A DNA stretch of 64,000 nucleotides, from positions 1 to 64,000 of the forward strand of contig CALYLX010000145.1 of assembly GCA_944990035.1 (NCBI GenBank), given 5' to 3'. Positions within the stretch are counted from its first letter, which is position 1; every line of letters begins with the position of its first letter. Position numbers and translations under genes: made by a program. Below are positions 30,184-47,336 of this stretch, one piece after another. Below the pieces are notes generated by a model. It did no database searches and was not told the origin of the DNA. It saw nothing but the letters and a program-made list of their open reading frames with translations. The DNA comes from Clitopilus passeckerianus. Lineage: Eukaryota > Basidiomycota > Agaricomycetes > Agaricales > Entolomataceae.

Positions 30184-33100
30184 ATGGTGCCTTACGTCCT
30201 CCAGCAGAGCCCGACGAAGGATGATACTTCATGGCGCTATTCAGTCCCTCCAACGGCCCTAGTTCCTCCCAAGAATCGCCCAACACTAGGAAAGATGATC
30301 CTCTTTACCGCAGAACAGATTAGCATCCAGATGGCCCCACTGCCGGCAAACCGCATTTTACGCGGTGACGACCCGTCGAAGTTCATCCTTTTGTCCTTTG
30401 GTGGCCTGCGATTTCCTGGATCAACTCTTCGTGACATGTCAGATTACATCGCACGGTTGCTGAAGGCCGGTATTTTCCTGAACGATGTGCAGTACCGGTT
30501 TTATCACCACAGCAATAGCCAACTGGTATGTTCTTGCTCTCGCCAATCGTTGACGACGACTGATGATCCATGAAGCGTGGAAGATCATGCTTTGTTCGTG
30601 AAGCAAATTCAGACGAAGAGCTTGATCGTAAAATCTACGCCTTGGGAGATTTTGGGAACATTATGAACGCGGCAAAACGTAAGTTGTTTTAATGACTCGA
30701 CTGTATCTGACGTGCTTACCGCAAACGACCAGGTGCCAAACGTATAGGGTTGTTGTTTTCCGAAGCGCAGCTGGATTGGCAGTTAGACCCGAGATACATT
30801 GAGGACATCGATGATATCAAAGACGGGATGAACTCTTCTCAGATGGATGTGGTCTCATCTCTAAGAGGCTTGCGGTTCAGCTTAGTCGATCAAAGAAGAT
30901 CATTCTGAGAGGAGTACGATATACGCCGACCATTTATCAAATCCGGCAAGTCCTACTTTAGCGAAGAGATACATGTGTTTACCTCCAATTCTGATTGGCA
31001 GGTATCTTGGGTACAAAGGAGTTCTGATGCTTCACCCTGAACTCAACGCTCCCGATAAACCGTTGGCACAGTTTCGAAAGAGTATGAAGAAATTCAAGAC
31101 GACTCAAGATTGGACCTTTTCAGTCGTCAATTTCTCCAAACCTTATACCTTTGGACGCCTCAACAACGACGTTATGGTTCTTCTCTCGAGCCTTGGAATC
31201 ACCGACGAAAAACTCAGGGCAAAGCAGCAAGAGTATTTTGACTGGATTCGAGCAGCCTCCGTCGACGCAATCAAGGCTGTCGATTTCCTCTGCGCGTTGC
31301 AAAACTACGACCTGGCAGAAAGGGTGCTACTTGATGGGCTCGACGATCCAACAGTCAAGGAGAAGGTGCGAAAAGTACAACTATCCGAAGTATCCAGCTT
31401 CAAGAGCGACAAGGGGCGGCCAAAGTCAAGAACATTTGTTCGGGACTCTCGTCGACTCTTTGGAGTCTGCGACCCTTATGGTGTTCTCAAAGAAGGCGAA
31501 GTCCACATTCGCATCACAGTCGGTCGAAAAGGCCCTGCTACGCCTATACATGGCGATGTTCTTGTGATCCGCAACCCCTGCCTTCATCCAGGTAATCGTC
31601 GCCCTCAGCTTTAAACATCCGACAAGCCTGTTAACTGATATCCAATAGGGGACTGCTTGAAGCTTCGTGCAGTTCATGATAACCGCCTCAACCATCTTGT
31701 CGACTGTATTGTGTTTGCCTCCGTAGCTCGCCCCGGACATCATTCCGCTCCATCAATGTCAAGCGGCGGAGACCTTGATGGTACGATATCTATTCTGAAA
31801 ACCGACGCATTCTAATCAATAGGCAGGTGATGAGTATTTTGTGTGTTGGGACAAGGACCTAGTGCCTACACGGGTAGTGGAGGTGAGAAGCTACTCTATA
31901 CTTCCGTTGCCAAGTTGATAGAAATTTTCCAGTCTTATGACTATCCCCCTAATAAAGAACAGAGGCCCATCAAACTTGAACGGTCTCATCTGATAGACCA
32001 CTTCGCAATGTACAGCGGGGCAGGGTAGGTGGCATTCATACGCCCACGACAGCTTCTGGAAATGTCTCTCCTTCTAGAGTCGCAAGGGTTGCATCTCTGC
32101 ATGCGAAATGGGTCCGCGCGAGCCCAAAGGGTGCTCTTAGTCCTGAGTGTCAAGAGCTCAACGCGCTTCATTCCCAATGTGTTGATGGTGCGAGAGTCAA
32201 GATTCCAGATCGGCTTACAAAACTGCCTGAGTTACCAGAGGGCTCAGATCCTTTCATTCTCGACCTTCTGGAGAATGATAGGGCAGAATTCGCTGAAGCT
32301 TTCATAAGCAAAAACGTAACTCTTGAGGTTGTGTCATCCCTGGACGCTGGCGGTGGAGAGCATCTCCTACGCGGACTGCTACAAAGCGAACAGAGTTCAT
32401 TATCGGAATTCGAGATGTTCAATCTCGCGAACGCCCTCGCAAGGCGTCTCTCTCTCGACACGTCATCATTCCTCCCCTACCTCGACATGTCAGCCTTGAC
32501 TTCCCAGCAAAAGCATGCCCTCAGCCTTTCCCTCGGTTTGGAGAGAAAGAGCACCCCTTCATCTGGAATTCTCTTCTTCGTTCGGACATTCTTCGGCCTC
32601 AGGATCTTTACCAACGGGCCTTGAATCGACCGTTCTCTATTCAACGACTTTATTCGTCAAAGCAGCAAGGACTTTATACCTTTTTCGAGTTTCTTCGAAT
32701 GGCGACCCAGGAATACACCAGGAAGCTACTGGTCCTCCAAGTAAGTTCCGCATTCTTTTGATGCAGTCAGGCAAGCTCAGTCCCTGAAGACAACAGCACG
32801 GTTCTCTATTGGGATCTTTATGCGGGGTCCTGTACCCTGGAATGAAGACACGGATGTCGGGCATAATGTTGTCGTTTGCTCATTCATGCCTTATACGGCG
32901 TCCAACCTCCCAGGCTATCGGCCGTGTACCAATGGTTATCGCCTCCATCTTGGAGATAACAACTTTCAGTTGTATAACAAGCAACAGAGCGACACGTTCG
33001 TCTTTATCAACCATGCACCTCGTGCGTCTAGTTCAGAGATTGCTGTGAGCATCGCTCTAGGGAAGATATCCGCAACTGTACAACGAGTACGTTTCGCCTC

Positions 33101-36100
33101 TGTTCCGACGTCCCCGCTCTGACATCTTGAATTCCTAGCAACTTGGAAGGCTAAGAATGGCACCAGTGATTGCTTTGGAATTGCACGTCGTGTCCAATCG
33201 AGATAGGGAAGCGCATCAACTATTTGACCTCTGGTTTGACCAGTAAGCGACGTAAGTAGAAGTTGATGCGCAGTGAGCTGACGACGCATTGCTGCCAGTG
33301 TACCTACCGAGGAATTTGTTAAACGCCTGGCTCGCCGACCTGAGCCATACACGAGAAATGATATCAATAACGTCGACTGGTCAAAGGAGGATCGCCGTGC
33401 CTTACAAGGTTCATTCTTTCAACTACCTGATCTCGTCAACACAGATGGCATCAGCCACAACACGCCTCCAGTGAACGAACTTGATCCCAAAAGCTGGCCA
33501 CAGCCGGGGGATCAAGTGGAGCAATGGCAGAGGCATGATGAACAGAGCATGTCGCGACACCTCACCACCAAAACGTCCTCAGAAATCGATGAAATCATGG
33601 CATTTGCCCTGGAACATAATGCGGAAGAGGAGATCTTCATGATATTTTATCATATAGCGTCTACCCCGCCTGCCGATCTGTCCATCCTTACCGAGTGGGT
33701 AGAGATACCCTGCCCTCGTCTTCTCCCTCCTCAAGATCTATCCGCCGACAGATGACTCTTCTCTCCCTCCTGCATTGCGGGAATCAGCTCACATTGTCAT
33801 TCGAAATCTGATTCGGTGCGCGAACGCACTTGGGTTCACGGTGTTGTCCACTTTGGAGAAGATTTCGATGTCTATCCGGGGGCTGGAAGCTGCCCAATAC
33901 TATGATCTTTTGATGCTCGTCTCGATGAGTGTTCGGTCTCAAGAGGTGGCCCGGGAGCTTCTACTCGTTCTCAACGATTTTCGAACTGACGAGTCCGATG
34001 GCCCTCTGTCCCCTACCGCAAAATATGGCAACAAACTCGCGCTATCAATTGCATTCGAGCGGGCTGAAGAGGCAGCTGACGAATGTCCTTGCGATGACTC
34101 GGGGCGACCGAAAAAGCAGAGAGCTGCCCCATCGCAGGTAAAGCTGCGCTGGGTGCCGGAAAAAAGGACACAGGTTACTGCTGAATATCGAGTTGATACT
34201 CGCCCATCTGCTCGACTTCATTCTCATGTCCGACTTCAGGCTGCATCAAAGCCTGCCAACCAATGGGCTCGGCCTTTAGTTCTTGACGGATTGGTTGTCG
34301 TTGCTTCGAAAGGAGAATTTAGGATTGAGCTCATGCATAACCCCCCTCCGGAAATGGAAGCGATGGACTGGACAATGTTTAACGCTGGGAGCATTGGTGA
34401 GAATACTTCCTGTCTGCTCGTCTGCTAGCGCTGAGGGAGCGATCCCTCAGCTACCTCAAGGGCAATGATGGATGCACTCCAGCGCCTGATCACCGAAGGA
34501 TCTGACTGTTGCAGATTTCACGGTGTCATCACTGGAGAGGTTGCTACGACAGAGGATATAAACGCCGCAGAAACGAGAACGGGCGCAAGTCGGGGTACAT
34601 CGGGACCTTCCAATTACGGTGGCTTGAATGCAAGTCAAATTGATGCCGTCCGCTCTTGCAGTGCGCCACTTTCATTGATATGGGGTCCTCCTGGTACGAT
34701 TTCCCGAAGTATTGGCGGCAGGTTTTTCTAATCTTCGGGCACAAGGTACTGGCAAGACAACCGTGGTAGTGCAGATCTTGAGGGTCCTACTGAAGGACGC
34801 TGTTACTGACGGCAGAAAGATCCTGATGTCAGCATCTACTCACAATGGTAAGCCCACGTTGTCACTCCTCTCAGCCATTATAACTGACTAGGGTGTTTAG
34901 CTGTCGACAATGTCCTTGAACGGTTCCTTAAGCTGAATGAGACAGAAGAACTCCTCACAGACCAGCAAATTCTTCGTGTGGCTACGGATCAATCCAAGGT
35001 TCATGAATCCTTAAGAAGTTATACGATTGATGCTCGCGTTGGTGGTGACTTGAATGAGAATAATCACCTTGCTAAAAAAGCGCGCGAGCGGGTTGAAAAC
35101 GCCATCCTTGTATTCACGACTTGCGCAGGTAGGAACGCTCTGATTTGTGCACGAACACAAACTTATTTGTACCTCCAGGAGCCGGCCTTGGTACCCTTCG
35201 GAAGCAAGACTTTGATATCGCTATCATTGATGAGGCTTCACAAATAACTGAGCCGACTGCTCTGATCCCCTCGTCAAGGGCATTAAGAAGGCGGTGATGG
35301 TAGGAGATCAGTATGTCACCCTCCCTTGAGTTTTACTTGGCTATTTTTGTTGACAAGTTTCTAGCGTACAACTGCGACCTACAGTCCGGAAAATGGGGCG
35401 GGTTCTCGAACTGGATGTGTCTCTCTTGGAGAGAATCTATACACGTCTCGATCACCCGGATCTGCGCAAAACAATGCTTGATGTGCAATACCGGTCTCCG
35501 AGAGAACTCATGGCGTTTCCATCGCAAGAGTTCTACGAGGGACGCCTCGGTACTGGCCTTCAGAACAGTGCCGAAATCCTCAGTGTTTTGCGTGTATCAG
35601 CATTCCCCTGGCCACGTATGGGATATACGGCGAAGCCAACGGTTTTTATACCTTGTGCTTCTGAAGAGGACATGGGAGGGATGTCCAAAAGCAACCTTGG
35701 GCAGGTTGAATTGATCAAGCATATTCTACCATTGCTCCGAAAAGAAGTCCCAGGTACCGAAGAGGACATGGTAGAGCGGCTGAAGGAACTCAAGATTACT
35801 ATCCTCTCACCCTACACCAAGCAGATACAGGCCTCCGTAGTCGCGTTCCCAACACTCCATGCTACACCATCGATTCCTTCCAAGGCAGAGAAAGCGACGT
35901 CATCATCTTCACCTCTGTCCGCTGCAATTCTGATCTGGATATTGGTTTTCTGGAGGATGCGAGACGACTGAATGTGATGTGGACGCGAGCCCGGATTGCC
36001 CTGATCATTATTGGAGACCGCCTGACCCTCTCAAGTAGCGAACTCTGGAAGCGGGCTCTAGCTGCTTGCAGCGAGGTCACAATTAAATTACCTACACCAA

Positions 36101-44272: not shown

Positions 44273-45358
44273 CTAATAGATAACAGCAGGTGGAGGTAGG
44301 TCATCTTCAACATAGGTTTTGATGTCAATGTATTTGTCGATATGCCTCTCGCCTGCCCAAGCTCGAACCTTCTCAAAATTCTTACACATATGGGGGTACT
44401 CGAGGCGAGGTCTAACCACGAGGTCCTTAGGGTCCCATTGCCAGAAAACAATAGATGGGTCTGAGTGGCACCTAACGCAACAAAATAAACGATGAATATT
44501 TGATATAGGGATGGGACGGGAGGAAGGAATGCGCTCACATTACGTATTGCCTAATGGAATCGATACAATGGGAGATGTGCTCGGGAGCAAACTCCTCTTC
44601 GGGGTCCTCGAGGAGTTGGTCGTAACGATCTCGACGGAGAGCTTGCCTGACTTTATTCTGGAAAGTATATCAATATCTCATCCGGTGGACGGTTGGTACA
44701 CTTGCGTACCACGCAGTGAAGTTGGTGGAATACGTCGAGTTGAGCGATATAGTACCCAGGGAACTCCTTGATGGGCCATGTTCTGTTAGGCAAGAGAGCA
44801 GCTTCACTCCTGGGAATCTTCATCATCGTAACTAGGTCGAAGTTTTTGCTATAAAGAGGAGTAAAACGAGCTGAATACATAAACTCACGATTGTACAAAT
44901 CTTGCCACGCTTGATCAGACTCGTCAGAGTATTCTTGGTATATTGTCTTCTTGTAAAATCCGTCGTCAAAAACTTTGATTTGGTCCTCCAGAATCTCGTT
45001 TGCCGGAGCTATAAAGGTACGTAATCAATAATTGGAAGAATTGGCGAAGGATTGTCCTACAATAAAGTTGGAGCCGTGTGCTACTCCCAGTGGCTCGGCA
45101 AGTCGCAACTAGTTGGTCGTAGGCGGAACTTGAGCTCCGGAAAGCCAGAAGAAGTAAGATGAACCCAATCGCCTGCACGACAATAATAGCAAGAAATATA
45201 ATATCTTTCTTGATGCCGAAGTGTCTTTTCGTGAGTGAATGAGTCTCGTCGCCGTTGAAGCCATGTTGTTCGCAATGGCATTCTCTGTGAGGCTCTCCAG
45301 CAGGTGACTCGAGGTCAACAGCCATCAGAGGCAGATATCCTTCAGACTTGTCGCTCAT
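44273..45358 (-). CDS. UstYa-like oxidase (DUF3328), probable peptide-cyclising enzyme
   Basis: UstYa-family proteins are membrane-bound enzymes that oxidatively cross-link core peptides of dikaritins such as ustiloxin and asperipin. The N-terminus is cytosolic and hydrophilic (from MSDKSEGYLPLMAVDLESPA), followed by one transmembrane helix, IIFLAIIVVQAIGFILLLLA. Downstream exons read DQIKVFDDGFYKK, then PNRTWPIKEFPGYYIAQLDV leading into FHQLHC, and later EEEFAPEHISHCIDSIRQYV. HQLHC and HISHC are the two HxxHC motifs that define the family. The C-terminal exon has DPSIVFWQWDPKDLVVRPRL and ends DDLPPPAVIY at 44275. About five exons, roughly 250 residues, normal for the family. It is divergent from the repeat-peptide precursor at 46488, with 1.1 kb between the two start codons. 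Confidence 0.87.
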
Positions 45359-46487
45359 AGTCGTGGTGCGAGACAAAGACCGCTCAGTGTGGTGAACAAT
45401 CCCTATTACAAGGAGGGCTCATTGTGAGCAAGACGTCAGAGTCATCAAGCAAGTGGCGATTCGGATCATCCTAGTTCGGCTGTTCTTCAACGACAGCAAA
45501 AATTGTACATGGACCAGAGGCGAAGAGAAGACGTAGCATGCAAACCTTCCCCAATCTGAGGGAAACATGAGGAAAGGAGGCTACGTAAATTACAGTAACG
45601 ATCCTGAAGGGACCGGGACCAGGAAAGGTAAGGCTATTTAATTTTGATCCCGCACTCAACAGGTTGGACCGGCGTTTGTCTTCTCCGACGTGCCCCACCA
45701 TGACCACCTCACTCAAGTTTGAGAGATCCAAAGTGCCATACTATGCGCGAACTGTTGTATCAGATATCTTGATTTTGGCCTGAACTCTCACTAAAACCTC
45801 TAGTACGATTTCTGGGGCAAAAACGCTGTGCATACTCACGCCAGCAACGATGCTTATTCTACATGAACATCAGCATACTCGCTGAAGCTGATTAGATGGG
45901 ACCAGGTCAAGCGAAGTGTAATGGTGGCGGCGGCTTACTGAGAAAGATGCACAAGGTGCTCCCACTAGTCTCTTCAAATATCTCAGCTATTTCCGAAGAA
46001 CTGAAACGTCGCACCTTGGACAGCAGGTTGGATTTCTGATGTCTCAATCTTCGGATAGGTTTTAAAAGTTTCCTTCTGCGCAGGGAGCTATACGTATGGC
46101 TGGATTGAACATATCTGCCTCTGGATCATCCATGTTCAAGGAATCGAATGTCTGAGTTGCGCTTTCCTTCCGCTAGGTATGCCGAGAATGACTCCCATTA
46201 ATTTCGCGTCGGAGGGCTCCACATCAGGCGATCCTACTGTTTCTATTCGGCCTGGGGCGCACGCCGCTGTACTACTGACAAACGGAATGGTAGTCTTGCA
46301 AGTCCTCTGAACCGAGCATGTGTGAAGGGGTCCGATGCTATTGCGATCGTCAACGAGCTAGCAAGTCCTAACTTGACTTACAAAGTCCCCGGACCAGTAT
46401 AAATACAGGTGCCAGTTTTCTACAGACGACACCGCAGTAAAGTGGTATTTCGAGAAATAGCCTCTCTCCCCTCAGGACCCTACCACA
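45359..46487. promoter_or_regulatory. Divergent control region between the UstYa-like and precursor genes
   Basis: This 1.1-kb gap has no convincing gene. It holds a TATAAATA at 46398-46405, 83 bases before the precursor ATG. A shared or common regulator is plausible but not shown by sequence. Confidence 0.5.
46398..46405 (+). promoter_or_regulatory. TATA box of the precursor gene
   Basis: Perfect TATAAATA, followed 83 bases later by the ATG of the secreted precursor, a strong-promoter arrangement. Confidence 0.65.
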
Positions 46488-47336
46488 ATGAAATTCTCCA
46501 TCGCTCTTCTTCAACTCGCCCTTGTTGCCTTCGGTGCCCAAGCAGCACCGGTCGACGCAGGGACCTTTGGTACTGGTTAGTCTTCGTTCATGATTGCAGG
46601 TATCAGTTATTGACACGCAGTTCACTGTCTAGAACGTCGTGGGGAGGCTACCAGCGCCGATTCAGATGCCACTTTCCATCGTTCATCCAATGGCGGATGG
46701 TACTACGGCAAGCGCGATGAGGCTGCCGTTGCCGACTCTGATGCCACTTTCCATCGCTCCTCCAACGGGGGATGGTACTACGGTAAACGTGATGAGGCTG
46801 CCGTAGCCGACTCGGACGCTACTTTCCATCGCTCTTCCAATGGCGGATGGTACTATGGCAAGCGTGGCGAAGCTGCCGTTGCCGACTCAGACGCCACCTT
46901 CCATCGCTCATCTAACGGTGGATGGTACTACGGCAAGCGCGATGAGGCTGCCGTTGCTGACTCTGATGCCACTTTCCATCGTTCATCCAACGGTGGATGG
47001 TACTATGGCAAGCGTGAGGAGGCTACCGGCGCTGACTCCGATGCTACTTTCCACCGCTCGTCTAATGGTGGATGGTACTATGGTAAACGTGACGAGGCTG
47101 CCGTAGCCGACTCGGACGCTACTTTCCATCGCTCTTCTAATGGCGGGTGGTACTATGGCAAGCGTGGCGAAGCTGCCGTTGCCGACTCAGACGCCACCTT
47201 CCATCGCTCCTCTAATGGTGGATGGTATTACGGCAAGCGCGACGAGGCTGCCGTTGCCGACACGGATGGCACCTTCCACGCCTCATCCAACGGTGGATGG
47301 TACTATAACAAGCGCGACGAGGCTTCCGAAGCCTAA
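46488..47336 (+). CDS. Secreted, KR-punctuated repeat precursor (probable dikaritin-type RiPP precursor)
   Basis: Exon 1 (46488-46575) encodes a signal peptide, MKFSIALLQLALVAFGAQA, with likely cleavage after AQA, then a short lead. A 57-base intron follows. Exon 2 (46633-47336) holds nine 25-residue units (the first slightly longer) and a DEASEA tail; total 263 residues. Each unit ends in a Lys-Arg Kex2 site directly after the core SSNGGWYYG, which is unchanged in units 1-8; unit 9 has WYYN. The inter-core segment is acidic/Ala-rich (EAAVADSDATFHR). Signal peptide, Kex2 sites, repeated identical aromatic cores ending in Gly-Lys-Arg and a neighbouring UstYa-like enzyme are the features of ustiloxin-type precursors (UstA core ends in Ile-Gly before KR). 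Alternatives are a Kex2-processed signalling or wall peptide. The mature product is not predicted beyond W-Y-Y being available for oxidative cross-linking. Confidence 0.88.
46633..47315 (+). repeat. Nine tandem 75-bp coding repeats with 300-bp higher-order duplication
   Basis: Units start at 46633 (83-base first unit), then at 46716, 46791, 46866, 46941, 47016, 47091, 47166 and 47241. They begin with D, D, G, D, E, D, G and D. Units 3-4 and 7-8 are nearly identical at the DNA level, exactly 300 bases apart, indicating that a four-unit block was duplicated. Elsewhere units differ mostly at silent sites. Confidence 0.93.

Follow-up and report, generated by a model that had tools for sequence, protein, structure and literature searches.

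Repeat peptide precursors recurrently paired with UstYa-family genes in Clitopilus passeckerianus: a probable minimal dikaritin-like system

The agaricomycete Clitopilus passeckerianus carries a two-gene locus in which a repeat peptide precursor lies beside a gene of the UstYa/DUF3328 family. It was found in a stretch of 64,000 nucleotides (hereafter the window) that corresponds to positions 1 to 64,000 of contig CALYLX010000145.1 in assembly GCA_944990035.1; the contig is called C142 below. The two genes are divergent, lie about 1.1 kb apart and occupy positions 44273-47336, where a first-pass annotation had correctly located them and had proposed a probable dikaritin-type pathway. The observation made in that annotation is confirmed and its interpretation is supported in part, while the finding is more extensive than the single locus, as the pairing of a KEX2-type repeat precursor with a UstYa-family gene recurs elsewhere in the genome with other core peptides.

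The precursor and its repeat units

The precursor gene (46488..47336, forward strand, as are all its parts) comprises two exons and encodes 263 amino acids, from an ATG at 46488 to a stop codon at 47334-47336. Exon 1 (46488..46575) encodes a putative signal peptide, judged from the sequence, and a short pro-region (MKFSIALLQLALVAFGAQAAPVDAGTFGT), and paralogues start similarly. It is followed by a GT...AG intron (46576..46632), for which an alternative in-frame acceptor a few bases upstream is possible, and by exon 2 (46633..47336). The hydrophobic N-terminus (MKFSIALLQLALVAFGAQA) thus precedes an RR site, nine units of 25 residues and the tail DEASEA. The units join an acidic leader, such as DEAAVADSDATF, to the core HRSSNGGWYYG and a KR site. 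The claim that each of them ends in SSNGGWYYG before Lys-Arg holds for eight of the nine; the last reads HASSNGGWYYN-KR, with A replacing R before SS. In Tandem Repeats Finder, no other repeat of the window comes near the array, which scores 929 (period 225) and 833 (period 75) against 52 and 56 for the other two rows. With a putative signal peptide followed by repeats flanked by dibasic sites, the precursor has the architecture of KEX2-processed repeat proteins (KEPs).

The units are under purifying selection. Between units 1-8 (28 pairs), the proportions of synonymous (pS) and nonsynonymous (pN) differences are 0.595 and 0.033 for the whole unit, 0.653 and 0 for the core HRSSNGGWYYG, and 0.723 and 0 for the KR site, while the leader tolerates some change (pN 0.071). 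Inclusion of unit 9 (36 pairs) raises the pN of the core to 0.035. Because silent sites have diverged while the peptide has not changed, the repeats are not a fresh DNA duplication. Units begin with (D/G/E)E, followed in the commonest form by AA-VA-DS-DA; the first dipeptide is thus XE, and the XA/XP dipeptides of STE13 were not found directly after KR. A cut after the single Arg, between FHR and SSNGG, is possible in this precursor and not in the GGWAPG or NWG paralogues described below. Computed [M+H]+ values for linear products are 990.395 for SSNGGWYYG, 1430.624 for FHRSSNGGWYYG and 2476.044 for DEAAVADSDATFHRSSNGGWYYG.

Protein database searches with the precursor (167 candidates) and with a six-row precursor alignment (8,000 candidates scored) returned nothing at E <= 10, which is no evidence of absence because the short-word method is weak for repeats. 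A Pfam match of the precursor to LINC-PINT (32.8 bits against a cut-off of 27) contains no single stretch that passes and was taken as a repeat artefact; matches to SH3_6, FTP and DUF2341 fall below the cut-off and were likewise attributed to repeated short matches.

The UstYa/DUF3328 enzyme

The divergent gene (45358..44273, reverse strand) encodes 285 amino acids in five exons (45358-45061, 45008-44889, 44831-44710, 44657-44539 and 44471-44273). Residues 55-262 match PF11807 with 151.5 bits (cut-off 25; E 3.9e-44). One hydrophobic helix is apparent from the sequence at about residues 53-73, and the motifs HQLHC and HISHC start at residue 175 (exon 3) and residue 207 (exon 4), in agreement with the earlier description of this neighbour. 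The protein thus has the HxxHC(x)nHxxHC signature and the single N-terminal membrane helix that characterize the family. H175, H178, H207, H210 and C211 are invariant in 20 sequences, and C179 is present in at least 90% of them. The splice model fits stretches common to 19 database homologues (E <= 0.001, identity 27-52%), for example LYSPA, DLYN-T-xxKIP and LDVFHQLHC. The best named homologues come from Cyathus, Crucibulum, Coprinopsis, Flammula and Mycena, which bears out the attribution of the DNA to a basidiomycete; a Sistotremastrum protein with 37% identity is also among the homologues.

The enzyme is under purifying selection as well. Compared with C93:36k, the ratio of nonsynonymous to synonymous substitution rates (dN/dS) is 0.17; compared with C142:96k, C142:90k and C74, it is 0.10, 0.04 and 0.05, the last three values being rough as dS exceeds 1, exon 1 is only partly covered for C142:90k and C74, and the C74 frame is interrupted. 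DUF3328 proteins are described, from work on CctR, as membrane-bound binuclear copper enzymes that use HxxHC(x)nHxxHC (PMC12435403), and the protein is accordingly predicted from its family to be a copper-dependent oxidase. In a structural model of a Cyathus homologue, an N-terminal helix is predicted at 36-67 and the two HxxHC motifs lie on helices 152-167 and 180-197, a layout in line with the published description of CctR (PMC12435403). No solved structure related to the enzyme was found by sequence or by fold (best E 0.26); the mean predicted local distance difference test score is 74.6 for the homologue model and 50-59 for the other four models.

Recurrence of the pair in the genome

The assembly (64.8 Mb, 160 contigs) contains 68 exon-level matches to PF11807. 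A multi-exon type, assigned by its pattern of PF11807 matches and referred to as type 1, accounts for 23 UstYa copies with haplotype copies counted. Twelve of these are accompanied, at a distance of up to about 3 kb, by a dibasic, Trp-bearing repeat precursor of their own, in divergent orientation for ten and in tandem for two (C26 and C123). Many contigs look like haplotype pairs, by inference C93/C142, C26/C123 and C59/C139, and for that reason the copies of UstYa and precursor are not independent loci.

Seven precursor types (A, A', B, C, D, E and F) are distributed over the twelve paired copies. Searches with the precursor found relatives on C141, C93, C142 and C74. The flanks of UstYa copies yielded paired precursors with other cores. 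GGWAPG cores are repeated in eight units on C93 and five on C142, and short units read YNWGA, YTNWST and YHWGL on C93, and HNWGL, HNWGL and YHWGL on C142. The C74 precursor contains DGWDFLPS once and AGWSIGPP twice, GGYWPT and related cores occur on C26 and C123, and FFYNWGEE-core precursors are found on C142 and C93. Two further type-1 copies (C142:185k and C93:173.7k) lie inside the FFYNWGEE clusters, and three others (C142:761k, C142:816k and C94:75k) have looser repeat candidates.

A more distant group of 27 genes that match PF11807, by count, is referred to as type 2. The same scan as for type 1 found a repeat precursor in none of the nine type-2 regions fetched (0/9). In a FastTree phylogeny (123 columns, 39 sequences) that included database homologues, ten type-1 genes form one clade (support 0.86), and eleven type-2 sequences fall outside it and are not one clade themselves. 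Type-2 genes occur as one to five per stretch of 6-10 kb on C66, C67, C69, C139, C59, C114, C8, C4 and C116.

Several copies are atypical. At the second WYYG locus (C141:556k) the units are in a different frame from the ERRG start, an apparent frameshift or difference in splicing. The UstYa frame at C74:297k, beside the AGWSIGPP precursor, is interrupted before HQLHC, and in the type-1 copy at C142:201k, for which the parts read contain no precursor, HQLHC is replaced by HQLHG. Downstream of the C93:96k UstYa, at C93:97.9k, lies a relative of the precursor that has one unit (FVYLPHGWANPKKR) and the same type of signal. Near the type-1 copy C142:761k, a signal-like start at C142:762800-765300 is followed by repeated SLFPKFVWSRKGAAD (FPKFVW) pieces spread over different frames, suggestive of one exon per unit. 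Repeats of LWNGEWLHKEEARAN (LWNGEWLH) stand beside UstYa at C142:814k and C94:77.6k with no KR or RR between units, and in one unit of this type at C142:814k a stop replaces Trp. At both C142:66.4k and C93:58k, a type-1 UstYa without a recognized repeat precursor is followed downstream by the gene of a small, apparently secreted protein, possibly a single-core precursor, which has a single KR site and ends in YDYSKQPWT.

Constant and variable parts of the precursors

In the first three units of the six-row alignment, the invariant positions are LERRGEA, E-A, A-D and D of the leader, and Trp; KR is nearly so. With types A-D aligned manually on Trp, identity over the six pairs, which are not independent, totals 106/147 (72%) in the signal and pro-region, 47/72 (65%) in the leader and 16/51 (31%) in the core, falling to 10/45 in the core without Trp.

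Trp is present in 65 of the 70 scored pieces of paired precursors. The count drops pieces before the first dibasic site and those shorter than nine residues, scores haplotype copies separately, and leaves out the looser candidates and the single-unit C93:98k copy (Trp in 1/2 pieces). The five misses comprise two C-terminal tails, one mis-split flank and two real cases, both in the C142 FFYNWGEE precursor, one of which has Arg for Trp. Trp is almost constant across the family, in unpaired as in paired precursors. Tyr, found in 50/70 pieces, does not occur in types B and D, and is absent from every unit of the paired GGWAPG (8 and 5 units) and DGWDFLPS/AGWSIGPP (3 units) precursors. Any chemistry common to all pairs therefore cannot need Tyr, and the Trp/Tyr cross-linking that had been considered likely is weakened to that extent. 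No dikaritin is known to use Trp.

Genomic surroundings

The upstream region common to both genes (45359..46487, 1,129 bp) contains TATAAATACAGGTGC near its precursor end. This element is kept in six of the nine aligned precursor promoters (types A, B, C and D), altered in the C93:98k copy and absent from the type F promoter; the alignment left out the C141 and C93 WYYG copies.

A Pfam scan of 30 of the 77 listed open reading frames (ORFs), covering 29-64 kb of the window, gave matches in ten, to GST, BTB, RNA-dependent RNA polymerase (RdRP), AAA/helicase types, F-box and WD40. Among these 30, none was recognized as a tailoring enzyme of the kind known from dikaritin pathways; split tailoring genes may be missed because 20 of the ORFs have no Pfam match and the first 29 kb lie outside the scan. 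The tyrosinase that marks clusters of the ustiloxin/phomopsin type has 12 matches in the genome, with none on contig C142 and none among the scanned ORFs. The genome contains two kexin-type (P_proprotein) matches. RdRP exons at 30886-32621 and AAA_11/AAA_12 helicase-type exons at 34888-35968 (both forward strand, the AAA_11 match being below cut-off) may belong to RNA-silencing genes. Telomere repeats, sought in the window as an explanation of its position at the contig start, were not found.

A proposed minimal peptide pathway and its alternatives

The locus shows one feature of dikaritins, a repeat precursor clustered with a DUF3328 gene, in a pairing that recurs in the genome; the other feature, a cyclic product with modified side chains, is a prediction here. 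The pairs described here probably constitute a minimal, two-gene, dikaritin-like system for a ribosomally synthesized and post-translationally modified peptide (RiPP), multiplied in an agaricomycete. The arguments for it are the gene anatomy, the Pfam assignment, purifying selection on units and enzyme, recurrent pairing and its absence from the nine type-2 regions, to which are added the two kexin-type matches, the conservation of leader and signal over core, and the CctR-like motif layout of the homologue model.

In such a pathway, the signal peptide would bring the precursor into the secretory pathway, and KEX2 and KEX1 would cut at RR and KR and trim the basic residues, to yield nine near-identical peptides, eight of them ending in SSNGGWYYG. 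In the same compartment, the divergently encoded UstYa, a type II membrane enzyme by family, would oxidize the core in a copper-dependent manner. The acidic leader EAxxADxDxxF, conserved across paralogues, may be the recognition element of the enzyme, and Trp the residue most likely modified, leaving the rest of the core free to vary. A simple product is expected because no other tailoring gene was recognized nearby, and it would be a simply oxidized or cross-linked secreted peptide. As a tentative extension, Agaricomycetes may possess a UstYa RiPP branch of their own, in which the reactive aromatic residue is Trp and not Tyr, and an acidic leader within the repeats guides one enzyme lineage over fast-changing cores; the result would be a genome-encoded set of modified or macrocyclic peptides centred on Trp, with unlinked precursors processed in trans in some cases.

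Modification need not involve ring closure. That UstYa hydroxylates, dehydrogenates or halogenates side chains without cyclizing the peptide is a sub-case of the dikaritin-like reading, conceivable rather than expected. DUF3328 proteins have been implicated in hydroxylation, halogenation and isomerization besides macrocyclization (PMC12435403), only one enzyme is at hand with no tyrosinase match on its contig, and some cores, such as GGWAPG, offer few partners for a cross-link. Against this, the characterized products of DUF3328 and KEX2-repeat pairs named by Umemura are cyclic (PMC7329392).

Several observations weigh against the dikaritin-like reading itself. The pathway is deduced from genes, and the finished peptide is a prediction; the leader has no clean XA/XP (STE13) repeat that would mark the N-terminus of the product. 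Between types A and B, leader (6/12) and core (5/11) are equally conserved. For six type-1 copies no repeat precursor was found in the regions read, that is, parts of both sides for C142:67k, C93:59k and C142:201k and one side for C93:188k and C94:147k, while the sixth (C79) lies at a contig end, outside the regions read; C94:147k looks by its exons like the other haplotype of C142:761k, yet has no FPKFVW repeat in the part read. When two other precursors served as queries, eight copies of related Trp repeat precursors were recovered (C139, C59, two on C82, two on C83, C79 and C141; E > 0.001 for two of them), of which four were read. None has a PF11807 match closer than about 100 kb: the nearest one listed is about 107 kb from the C139 copy, and the remaining copies have theirs at greater distances or on different contigs. 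A weak match to a single unit on C80 (E 0.18) likewise has no PF11807 match nearby. A precursor kept without a nearby UstYa, which the first-pass annotation had named as a sign against its proposal, is therefore encountered in part inside the same genome. Since Trp is present in 11/12 pieces of the four unpaired precursors, its conservation need not come from UstYa, nor does it prove that the oxidase acts on Trp. In a survey of repeat precursors, Y is enriched near DUF3328 genes and W is not (20.5% with against 24.5% without; PMC7329392).

The unpaired copies also favour a rival explanation, in which the precursors yield linear secreted peptides for signalling or defence, like other agaricomycete KEX2-processed repeats, and the adjoining UstYa acts on something else. 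In edible mushrooms of the genera Coprinopsis, Lentinula and Pleurotus, the KEX2 repeat peptides detected are linear or minimally modified, and many basidiomycete cores end in Trp (PMC9769878). This explanation is rather improbable in view of the UstYa adjacency at 12 copies and seven precursor types, the purifying selection on the enzyme, and the 0/9 result for type-2 regions. A pheromone-like precursor of alpha-factor architecture is very improbable: signal, KR-spaced repeats and aromatic core would suit it, alpha-type architecture occurs in Basidiomycota (PMC6339444) and 17 of 76 homologues of putative basidiomycete alpha-like precursors lie near DUF3328 genes (PMC7329392), but yeast alpha-factor lacks such neighbours and only three fungal pheromone precursors have them (PMC7329392), basidiomycete sex pheromones are of the a-type (PMC6339444), and the units here lack a clean STE13 XA/XP register and have many different cores in one genome.

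Comparison with known systems

Dikaritins are listed under Ascomycota (PMC12048977, PMC9233826). No characterized basidiomycete dikaritin and no Trp-based UstYa product were found in searches of an open-access library, most subscription journals being outside its coverage. In Pleurotus, 16 UstYa-like genes are reported, of which six are developmentally expressed (PMC8893723). The survey of Umemura in 2020 found DUF3328 neighbours for 22% of 7,878 repeat precursors, the count for Basidiomycota being 103 of 1,680, and gave two reasons for this scarcity, either a different motif of the cyclization factor or hardly any cyclization in Basidiomycota (PMC7329392). This genome, in which twelve paired copies combine constant Trp and leader with changing cores, is a direct test case for mushroom dikaritins and for the use of Trp by UstYa.

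The asperipin-2a pathway is similar in its single repeat precursor, single DUF3328 enzyme, aromatic core and small cluster (PMC7329392, PMC12048977). One DUF3328 enzyme forms the Tyr-O to Phe-C-beta ether of this compound (PMC12186524). It differs in being from an ascomycete and in linkages made from Tyr side chains (PMC9233826), whereas here Trp is constant and some paired paralogues have no Tyr. The asperipin-2a reductase (PMC12048977) has no counterpart among the 30 ORFs scanned. Ustiloxins and phomopsins have in common with the present system the signal peptide, the repeated cores before dibasic sites and the DUF3328 enzymes with HxxHC motifs, but they need a tyrosinase and more enzymes, and their cores are YAIG, YVIG and YVIP (PMC7329392).

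The basidiomycete KEPs with DUF3328 neighbours in the 2020 survey show the same gene pairing. Among them, type S-5 is the nearest precedent for many pairs per genome, being multicopy in Sistotremastrum (12 in two strains, 8/12 near DUF3328) and grouped with Y-containing types; in type P-3, W is accompanied by P, and 4/7 are near DUF3328 (PMC7329392). The available text of the survey describes no product for these KEPs, and neither a WYYG core nor a family with constant Trp and leader and variable core. The Coprinopsis KEP 490115 type resembles the present precursors in its KEX2-processed basidiomycete repeats with Trp cores, and differs in the removal of an STE13 motif and in its linear products with C-terminal Trp (PMC9769878). 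The same study (Vogt 2022) reports Trp-ended cores in other basidiomycete precursors, and its main text contains the terms UstY and DUF3328 0 times (PMC9769878). Plant burpitides are alike in working only, with copper enzymes of the BURP-domain cyclase type that form cross-links between aromatic side chains in ribosomally made peptides (PMC12186524); they belong to another protein family and share only a similar planar arrangement of four histidines, according to the CctR paper (PMC12435403). The known kind to which the Clitopilus pairs belong is the KEX2-repeat precursor with a DUF3328 gene, and what is new is its Trp-anchored, Tyr-independent, multi-locus form in an agaricomycete.

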